Part shown: positions 3,542 to 7,401 of the stretch, in pieces
How the letters are laid out: each line of letters starts with the position of its first letter
How positions within the stretch are numbered: the first letter of the stretch is position 1
NCBI GenBank assembly: GCA_026397255.1
Contig: JAPLVF010000006.1
Location: 1 to 52,927, forward strand
Length of the DNA stretch: 52,927 bases
Direction of reading: 5' to 3'
Source of the DNA: Candidatus Beckwithbacteria bacterium
Lineage (GTDB): Bacteria > Patescibacteriota > Microgenomatia > UBA1400 > CG1-02-47-37
The notes under the pieces: model-generated
Told to the model about the DNA's origin: nothing
What the model saw: the letters and a program-made list of their open reading frames with translations, nothing else
Databases searched by the model: none
Translations under genes and position numbers: made by a program

Positions 3542-3615
3542 AGGCCGGTAGCTCAGCTGGTTAGAGCGTCAAGCTTATACCTTGAATGTCGAGGGTTCGA
3601 ATCCTTCCCGGCCTA
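3542..3615 (+). tRNA. tRNA-Ile (anticodon UAU)
   Basis: A complete cloverleaf: acceptor AGGCCGG/CCGGCCT, D stem GCTC/GAGC, anticodon stem TCAAG/CTTGA with loop CTTATAC, and T arm with loop TTCGAAT. The anticodon is TAT, reading AUA. Most bacteria read AUA with a CAU tRNA modified to lysidine, so a UAU isoacceptor is uncommon. CCA is not encoded. The kinase gene starts 31 nt downstream with no terminator between, so they may be co-transcribed. Confidence 0.9.
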
Positions 3616-3646
3616 CATTTTATTTATTTTCCTGCCCAAAAAATTT

Positions 3647-5890: not shown

Positions 5891-6595
5891 ATGGGGTTAT
5901 TTGATAATTTGATCGGTCAATATGTAAAGAGACGGGAATTTGTGTCGAAGGAAATAGAGGGAGTGGATGAAACGAGCAGGAAAGTTAAAATAAGGCCGTT
6001 TATTACAATTTCGAGGGAATCGGGCAGCGGCGGGAAACCAATCGCCCAGTTAGTCGCCAAAAAATTAAAATACAAATTTTACAACAAAAAATTAATTGAT
6101 TTGACTGCCAAAGAAACCAAAAAGAGACAGGCTTTAATTGCTTCTTTAGACGAAAAGGACAGGGGAATGGTGGAAGATTTGGTTTATTCTTTATTAAGTC
6201 CGGATTATGTTGACGAGGAAACGTATTTTAAGCATTTATGCCATGTAATTTTAACTGTCGCCAGGAAAGGGAATTGCGTAATTTTGGGTAGGGGGGCAAA
6301 CTTTATTACCGGCGGTTACGGCGGTTTGCACGTTCGGATTGAGGCGCCATTTTTGGTGCGGTCCGGCTATACGGCCCAGTACGAAAAACTATCGATTTAT
6401 GAAGCCCGGGAAAGAATGCAGAGACTTGATAAAGAGAGAAAAAAGTTTATCCAAGAACATTTTGGCAAAGATCCGTCGAATCCTAATTATTATGATTTGG
6501 TGATTAACACCACCTATTTAAATATTGCCCAGGCGGCAGAAATTATTTTAACGGCGTTTAAAAATAAGTTTCCGGACTGGAAAAATTACAGATAA
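5891..6595 (+). CDS. cytidylate kinase-like protein (Cytidylate_kin2 family)
   Basis: A 234-residue P-loop kinase-like protein. The phosphate-binding stretch is ISRESGSGGKPIA (about residues 39-51), followed by a helix with NKKLIDLTAKE and, later, VILGRGANFI and the lid-like segment ERMQRLDKERKKFIQEHFG. The order of motifs is that of the Cytidylate_kin2 family, related to CMP kinase. The likely reaction is ATP-dependent nucleotide phosphorylation in the cytoplasm, but this family is poorly characterised and the substrate is not certain. It sits just downstream of the FtsB-like gene and just upstream of the RNA gene cluster. Confidence 0.75.
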   Translation: MGLFDNLIGQYVKRREFVSKEIEGVDETSRKVKIRPFITISRESGSGGKPIAQLVAKKLKYKFYNKKLIDLTAKETKKRQALIASLDEKDRGMVEDLVYSLLSPDYVDEETYFKHLCHVILTVARKGNCVILGRGANFITGGYGGLHVRIEAPFLVRSGYTAQYEKLSIYEARERMQRLDKERKKFIQEHFGKDPSNPNYYDLVINTTYLNIAQAAEIILTAFKNKFPDWKNYR

Positions 6596-6597
6596 AT

Positions 6598-6606
6598 TGG
6601 TAGAAT
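6598..6606 (+). promoter_or_regulatory. extended -10 TGGTAGAAT for the tRNA-like RNA
   Basis: An extended -10 box whose expected start (about 6613) lies 13 nt before the cloverleaf. The short leader contains TTGTTCTTTGAT, which resembles a boxA. Confidence 0.55.
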
Positions 6607-6625
6607 AACCCTTGTTCTTTGATAT

Positions 6626-6701
6626 AGCGGGTGGGAGGTAAGTATCTCGTGAGGCTCATAATCTCACTTAATCTGGGAGCGTTACCCAGAACCCGCTACC
6701 A
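6626..6701 (+). ncRNA. tRNA-like cloverleaf RNA, CAU anticodon, abnormal D and T loops
   Basis: This 76-nt sequence folds as a cloverleaf with an encoded CCA end. The acceptor is AGCGGGT/ACCCGCT (perfect). The D stem is GAGG/TCTC with a 6-nt loop TAAGTA. The anticodon stem is TGAGG/TCTCA with loop CTCATAA (anticodon CAU). The T stem is 6 bp (TCTGGG/CCCAGA) with loop AGCGTTA. It lacks U8, the D-loop GG and the TTC of the T loop, so the normal tRNA elbow cannot form. The R11:Y24 pair in the D stem and the CTCATAA loop recall initiator tRNA. It is the only tRNA-like gene here that encodes CCA. It could be a specialised initiator-like tRNA, a tRNA with a non-translational job, or a decaying copy; the intact stems argue against decay. 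Confidence 0.6.
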
Positions 6702-6712
6702 AGTTACCTAAG

Positions 6713-6734
6713 TCCGCTTTTTGAGCGGATTTTT
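6713..6734 (+). terminator. intrinsic terminator of the tRNA-like RNA
   Basis: TCCGCT pairs with AGCGGA over a 5-nt loop, followed by five T. It lies 12 nt after the encoded CCA, making the tRNA-like RNA a single-gene transcript. Confidence 0.8.
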
Positions 6735-6777: not shown

Positions 6778-6850
6778 GGCAGGGTAGCTCAGTTGGTAGA
6801 GCACGGGATTCATAAACCCGCGGTCGCGAGTTCAATTCTCGCCCCTGCTA
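6778..6850 (+). tRNA. tRNA-Met (CAU), elongator type
   Basis: A cloverleaf with D stem GCTC/GAGC, anticodon loop TTCATAA (CAU), and T arm GCGAG/CTCGC with loop TTCAATT. The acceptor pairs GGCAGGG with CCCTGCT, leaving a G.U at position 1-72, and position 31-39 is A.A. C11:G24 in the D stem argues against an initiator. Because AUA is covered by tRNA-Ile(UAU) at 3542, this is most simply elongator Met rather than Ile2. CCA is not encoded. Its last three bases overlap the stop of the convergent RNHCP gene. Confidence 0.85.
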
Positions 6851-7156
6851 CTTTATCGGTTTGGTGGAGAGTTCGATCAGTTTTTCTTTATTGTCTTCCG
6901 GATCAGTTTTGTTGCGGGTGATTTTGCGGCACAAATGGCATTGGTGAAAGATAATGTAGCGGCCATTTTTAATTTGGACGCCAATAGGTTTCATTAAGGT
7001 TTGACATTTGGAAGCGCGGTCGCCGGGAAATTGATCATCAACGTGTTTGGAATACAGACAGTTGGGGCAGTGGTTGGTGTAGCCGGTGCCGTGGGTAATT
7101 TGGCCGCAGAATTCGCAGATAAAATCTTCATCGACTTTGGTAAAATGTTTGAGCAT
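6848..7156 (-). CDS. RNHCP-domain zinc protein
   Basis: A 102-residue protein dominated by an RNHCP-type domain: FICEFCG near residue 12, YTNHCPNCLYSKHVD (27-41), PGDRA (44-48), PIGV (57-60), and a last Cys pair in FHQCHLCRK (70-78). The paired cysteines suggest zinc binding. Members are small, mostly uncharacterised bacterial proteins. It is divergent from the structured RNA at 7194, sharing the intergenic region, and converges on tRNA-Met. Confidence 0.85.
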   Translation of the reverse strand: MLKHFTKVDEDFICEFCGQITHGTGYTNHCPNCLYSKHVDDQFPGDRASKCQTLMKPIGVQIKNGRYIIFHQCHLCRKITRNKTDPEDNKEKLIELSTKPIK

Positions 7157-7193: not shown

Positions 7194-7399
7194 ATTGACA
7201 ATTTAATTAAATCCGTTGATCCGAAGGGTTGGAATCGGGGAGGAGCGCAAGAATATGCGCCGGAGGCGAAACCGTATCTGCAGTACCGCGTTGGGTACGC
7301 AGCAAGAAAGACAGCAGCGAGTGTCGTAAATCAACGGAGCTCGTCATGAATGAGGTTGACTCATTTGTTTTGACGAATCCGCCGTGGGCGGATTTTTTT
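7194..7399 (+). ncRNA. structured non-coding RNA, class not recognised
   Basis: About 205 nt between a promoter and a strong terminator. An outer helix pairs CCGTTGAT (7213-7220) with ATCAACGG (7330-7337). Inside are hairpins CCGA/TCGG (7221-7238), GCGCA/TGCGC (7245-7260), CTGC-GTACC/GGTAC-GCAG (7278-7302, one bulge) and GACA/TGTC (7310-7325). A 3' hairpin pairs TCGTCA/TGACGA and ATGAG/CTCAT (7341-7376). I looked for and did not find the SRP GGAA-tetraloop/AGCAG pattern, the RNase P core or tmRNA ends. It directly precedes tRNA-Trp and trpS, so it might instead be a leader that controls them. A minus-strand open frame through it reads antisense to tRNA-Trp and is not credible. Confidence 0.6.
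7378..7399 (+). terminator. intrinsic terminator before tRNA-Trp
   Basis: TCCGCC pairs with GGCGGA over a GTG loop, followed by seven T. It ends 2 nt before tRNA-Trp, for which no good separate promoter is visible, so read-through may supply the tRNA. Confidence 0.85.
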
Positions 7400-7401
7400 G
7401 T

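Follow-up and report, generated by a model that had tools for sequence, protein, structure and literature searches.

The 76-nt cloverleaf RNA encoded at positions 6626–6701 is very probably the single initiator tRNA(fMet) of its organism; as judged from sequence comparison, its elbow has been rewired, with A18–G55 in place of G18–U55 and with G19–C56 kept. The window referred to throughout is the whole stretch of 52,927 nt that was analyzed, and it comes from a Candidatus Beckwithbacteria genome of 895 kb in 19 contigs that is estimated to be 100% complete. The features on which the analysis draws are as follows.

6626..6701, + strand: probable initiator tRNA(fMet), anticodon CAU, CCA encoded, 76 nt; cloverleaf read from the sequence, covariance in 15 relatives, only covariance-model match in the genome.
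6626..6632, + strand: acceptor stem, 5' strand AGCGGGU, with A1:U72 at the end; pairs with 6691–6697.
6691..6697, + strand: acceptor stem, 3' strand, followed by A73 (6698) and CCA (6699–6701).
6635..6648, + strand: D arm GAGG-UAAGUA-UCUC, with A18 at 6641 and G19 at 6642; GGUAAGUAUC is invariant in the clade, and 10–25 and 11–24 covary.
6650..6666, + strand: anticodon stem-loop, with CAU at 6657–6659; the group I intron site of relatives lies between 6656 (U33) and 6657 (C34).
6672..6690, + strand: T arm with a 6-bp stem and loop AGCGUUA, with G55 at 6679 and C56 at 6680; six pairs, four of them changed on both sides, and 18/55 covariation.
About 6708..6733, + strand: terminator-like hairpin and U-run, from the fold of the region; omitted by a simple terminator scan.
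6778..6851, + strand: elongator tRNA-Met(CAU) with canonical G18G19 and a UUC T loop, the other CAU tRNA of the genome; from ARAGORN.

The initial annotation had described a 76-nt cloverleaf with a perfect acceptor, an encoded CCA, a CUCAUAA anticodon loop, a UAAGUA D loop, an AGCGUUA T loop, a 6-bp T stem, and A11:U24, and each of these can be read from the sequence: the acceptor has 7 bp, running from A1 at 6626 and leading to the encoded CCA, the anticodon loop lies at 6655–6661, the D loop at 6639–6644, and the 7-nt T loop at 6678–6684. Folding of the cloverleaf region gives −47.4 kcal/mol (z = −3.3), and none of 200 shuffles was as good. The same annotation assigned the gene its own promoter and terminator; a terminator-like hairpin does appear in the fold and is missing from the output of the simple terminator scan, and the proposed promoter finds no support, as the promoter-like TGGAAA-17-TAGAAT at 6578–6606 does not stand out from chance (1 such pair vs. 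0.7 expected). Standard tools do not see the RNA at all. ARAGORN reports tRNA-Ile(UAU), tRNA-Met(CAU, 6778–6851), and tRNA-Trp in the window and misses 6626–6701, which also does not match the Rfam tRNA model RF00005 even at E ≤ 5; tRNA finders would miss it because the elbow contact is rebuilt with A18–G55. Separately, the region at 7200–7400, between tRNA-Met and tRNA-Trp and upstream of trpS, has the look of a structured RNA with a terminator-like hairpin end, GAATCCGCCGTGGGCGGATTTTTTT; it matches no Rfam family and gives only a weak RsmY hit of 15.7 bits.

Several features of the RNA are those of an initiator. The CUCAUAA loop is invariant in 15 relatives, and R11:Y24 is A11:U24 in 12 of these and G11:C24 in the remaining 3. 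The 1:72 pair is A:U in the window; in the relatives it is U:A in ten, A:U in four, and U×U in one, and as it is never G:C, it fits the need of Fmt, the determinants of which include a weak 1:72 end (PMC9976931). Three consecutive G–C pairs in the anticodon stem are not found, pairs 29–41, 30–40, and 31–39 being A29:U41, G30:C40, and G31·U39; only 30:40 is an invariant G–C in the relatives, and the triplet is relaxed in the initiators of the class too.

The genome offers no other candidate for this role. Its tRNAs were gathered by search and by region, and the 44 others that ARAGORN finds include a single CAU tRNA, the elongator at 6778–6851. A genome-wide pattern for a U55 initiator has no match in the source genome or in the same-type genomes G002 and G013, and a covariance model built on the 6626–6701 RNA (R1) matches the source genome at a single place. 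Across the class, this model retrieves the initiator tRNA in 227 of 374 genomes, nearly always once in each and with canonical initiators included. The genes for Fmt and peptide deformylase (def) are immediate neighbors in the genome. The suggestion in the initial annotation of a divergent initiator tRNA is therefore strongly supported, this RNA being the sole candidate in a genome estimated to be complete, with one orthologue per genome and with fmt and def present. Fmt itself scores under the TIGR00460 cut-off and over both Pfam cut-offs; its gene (L284:1429-2109, − strand) encodes 226 aa from an ATG and matches positions 91–180 of the 181 in the N-terminal formyltransferase profile, so that about half of this profile is absent and the enzyme may be a shortened one.

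Other observations concern the tRNA set as a whole. The tRNA-Ile anticodons of the genome are GAU and UAU, and CAU tRNA-Ile is absent from the set; AUA is apparently decoded by tRNA-Ile(UAU), at 3542–3616 of the window. Among the loci collected, ARAGORN did not find tRNA-Cys or tRNA-Ala(UGC), which may be intron-split or divergent. Look-alikes of the 5' half and the 3' half of tRNA-Gly(GCC) lie on different contigs (L076, G000:C19:38453-38507, and L078, G000:C7:about 71973-72040) and share AACGAGAAG, which suggests that an element entered the tRNA gene or that the assembly is broken there.

The elbow had been described as having no elbow bases, with U8–A14, G18–U55, and G19–C56 contacts all impossible. 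The first of these holds, since the window RNA has G8 and a U in the first D-loop position. The last does not: A18 and G19 (6641–6642) face G55 and C56 (6679–6680), G19–C56 can form, and neither the window RNA nor any of the 124 parsed initiators of the class lacks G19 or C56. As for G18–U55, it is indeed absent, and the contact appears to be replaced by A18–G55 and not lost, so that the elbow is better described as rewired. Positions 18 and 55 in the 124 parsed initiators are A/G in 62, G/U in 57, and G/C in 5, without a single mixed state (Fisher p = 1e-36). Two further initiators of the class, with loops CCCAUAA and UUCAUAA, were read by eye and are both G18/U55; this class of Microgenomatia-type Patescibacteria thus totals 126 initiators, 62 with A18/G55, 64 with G18/U55 or G18/C55, and none mixed. 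The same holds in other classes of the phylum, where about 69 initiators were picked only by their T loop: all 29 with G55 have A18G19 and all 40 with U55 have G18G19. The survey of the 18/55 state, about 195 initiators, is confined to Patescibacteria, and position 18 in type-B D loops is assigned to the purine that precedes the final RG, so that the alignment has some freedom.

Both states occur within families f30, f31, f43, f87, and f94. An rpoB tree that covers 30 genomes shows at least nine switches of state, eight of them on strongly supported branches and always at both positions, and in eight of eight independent pairs on this tree both sites change together (sign test, p = 0.008). Because both sites switch together and mixed states are lacking, these comparisons make it well supported that 18/55 is a coupled replacement that evolved repeatedly in this bacterial group and is not decay; A18 would then contact G55 in the T loop. 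The literature on initiator tRNA in Patescibacteria and on elbow exceptions that was covered, to which subscription journals mostly do not belong, describes no A18–G55 elbow, and we found no published description of the swap.

We also looked at TruB, the Ψ55 synthase. It was not found in the source genome by a search that matches all 14 control genomes, and it is found in 75 of the 374 genomes of the class, being absent in about 80%; most bacteria of the class may therefore make no Ψ55 in any tRNA. TruB is present in 5 of 53 A18/G55 genomes versus 21 of 58 G18 genomes (p = 0.0014, a value that ignores phylogeny). In the absence of Ψ55, the 18–55 pair would be less constrained and could move to A–G. 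Since five A18/G55 genomes have TruB, its loss is at best a bias toward the swap and is not necessary for it.

The A18/G55 state is accompanied by further changes. The U54/A58 combination is kept in all G18 genomes among the parsed class initiators and is loosened in A18/G55 genomes, where 54/58 is U/A in 28, C/A in 17, G/G in 9, A/U in 6, G/U in 1, and C/C in 1. The window has A54/U58, and its clade has A/U, G/G, or G/U, whereas most other families retain U54/A58. The window's clade also carries G8 in place of U8, lacks A14, and has a sixth pair in the T stem (alignment columns 47–66, with one double change), because of which its acceptor/T stack has 13 bp versus 12 in families f32 and f43, the nearest relatives in form.

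What the swap is for can be read in more than one way. It could be an initiator-specific signal by which elbow-reading factors, such as modification enzymes, the elongation factor, or the ribosome, tell the initiator from G18–U55 elongators. None of the 44 other tRNAs found in the genome departs from G18G19 and U(U/C)C, and therefore whatever permits or favors the swap would act on the initiator only; the swap is likewise confined to initiators among the tRNAs read, bar one non-initiator CAU tRNA with G18/G55. However, many sister families keep G18–U55 initiators without visible compensation and no such factor was identified, and we consider a dedicated signal unlikely. The exception, L199 of genome G528, has G1:C72 and hence is a non-initiator; its T loop is UGCGAUC, it has G18G19, and it is the only G18/G55 tRNA seen. 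A less probable explanation still, which we regard as quite improbable, is that the elbow is truly lost, with A18/G55 the product of neutral drift after TruB loss and the D and T loops apart, as in many metazoan mitochondrial tRNAs. The lack of TruB in most of the class and the lack of U54–A58, U8, and A14 in the window's clade would agree with this; neutral loss would nevertheless leave mixed states, of which there are none in about 195 initiators, at least eight independent branches show a change at both sites, and G19 and C56 never change in the 124 parsed initiators.

Conservation of the RNA bears on whether it works at all. The 15 relatives, which belong to six families, retain all four helices, with 24 pairs and 99.7% of cells paired. 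Changes on both sides are seen in 11 pairs, double-change cells number 55 versus a shuffled mean of 17.6, and the covariation score, 0.46, compares with 0.19 for shuffled alignments and no more than 0.12 for slid ones. The D arm shows no variation, and the named relatives that share it are Microgenomates: Collierbacteria, Beckwithbacteria, a Woesebacteria bin, and UBA1400. Comparison with relatives for stem covariation, which the initial annotation had proposed, thus favors function, and these data indicate that the initiator at 6626–6701 is functional and under selection. A kissing helix between UAA of the D loop and UUA of the T loop was considered and rejected, as the T loop varies (GUUA, GUAA, GGAA) and the D loop is invariant.

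In five relatives (L037, L041, L044, L045, and L048), the initiator gene is split, with the break just after U33. Introns could be delimited in four of the five and are 178, 182, 227, and 263 nt long; they start after U33 and end in G, and the exons of the four delimited copies join to give an intact version of the same tRNA. The Rfam group I intron model (RF00028) passes its gathering score in L044 and L045 and matches L041 (E 4e-10) and the fragmentary L048 (E 0.007) more weakly; the 263-nt intron of L037 is not recognized by Rfam. By these matches, no fewer than four of the five relatives have a group I intron as the inserted element. Group I introns are known from bacterial tRNA genes, and in the relatives too one lies in the anticodon loop of this gene; the difference is that it follows U33 in a tRNA that is invisible to tRNA finders, and that the window copy is intron-free.

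These results also bear on two readings in which the RNA would not be an initiator. The initial annotation had raised a tRNA-derived RNA with another job, namely a tRNA-like RNA working outside translation as an amino-acid donor or regulator. Non-translational tRNA-Gly of Staphylococcus has as its hallmark the loss of T54-Ψ55-C56 and G18G19, and the altered bases of the window RNA resemble this; however, the cell would be left without an initiator tRNA, and the same swap occurs in many other families, in initiators that are the only ones of their genomes and are ordinary in other respects, which makes such a role highly improbable. Hardly credible is a decaying initiator-tRNA pseudogene with the true initiator elsewhere or in an assembly gap, the fate that absence or stem mismatches in relatives had been expected to mark: ARAGORN and Rfam do score the RNA as not a tRNA and the genome is in 19 contigs, but every stem is kept in 15 relatives via compensatory changes, the D arm does not vary, each genome has one copy and the same-type genomes sampled contain no canonical one, and a group I intron in relatives' copies would be odd for a dead gene.

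As an initiator with a rewired elbow, the RNA can be set beside known systems. With bacterial initiator tRNA(fMet) of the E. coli type it shares the CUCAUAA loop, a weak 1:72 end, R11:Y24, and A73, as well as its standing as sole initiator in a genome with fmt and def. It differs in A18–G55 for G18–Ψ55, G8 with no A14, A/U at 54/58, a 6-bp T stem, A29:U41 and G31·U39 for G–C pairs, and a weak A1:U72 pair for the C1×A72 mismatch. Eukaryotic and archaeal initiators likewise have A1:U72 and A54 in place of U54 in the T loop, the eukaryotic ones with A54–A58 (PMC7912444); they keep G18–U55, whereas the window RNA has G55 and U58 in a genome with bacterial formylation genes. The metazoan mitochondrial tRNAs without an elbow (PMC4810234) also depart from the consensus elbow, but the window RNA keeps both arms and G19–C56, and its 18/55 positions covary. 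Non-proteinogenic tRNA-Gly of Staphylococcus resembles it in the altered GG of the D loop and UUC of the T loop; there the alteration removes the tRNA from translation, whereas the window RNA is the only initiator.

These features suggest how the RNA would work. The CAU anticodon would direct charging with Met, the weak A1–U72 end would suit formylation by Fmt, and IF2 would deliver the formylated initiator to the P site. The L-shape would be kept, with A18 still entering the T loop opposite G55. The ribosome and RNase P use the flat outer face that G19–C56 forms (PMC4810234), and this outward platform, which is recognized by RNase P, uL5, and the L1 stalk, would be unchanged and would help to keep the L-shape. 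Loss of TruB, and with it of Ψ55, may have freed the 18–55 pair to drift to an alternative, after which the window's clade may have gone further, with changes at 54/58, G8, the D loop, and the 13-bp acceptor/T stack.

Ψ55, the partner of G18, has been called universally conserved (PMC4810234, PMC7912444). It is conceivable, if doubtful, that Patescibacteria hold a second natural elbow design, A18–G55 beside G19–C56, that is restricted to the initiator, evolved many times, and serves as an initiator recognition feature or as an escape from Ψ55-dependent stabilization and not as a neutral alternative. The finding would explain why standard annotation gives this genome no initiator tRNA, as none is annotated because the elbow of the initiator is altered. 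It would also link TruB loss to tRNA evolution and provide a clean test of elbow function, in which the outer G19–C56 platform can be set against the inner 18–55 pair. It would be a natural and repeatedly evolved replacement of G18–Ψ55 in the tRNA that starts every protein, in bacteria with reduced translation machinery.
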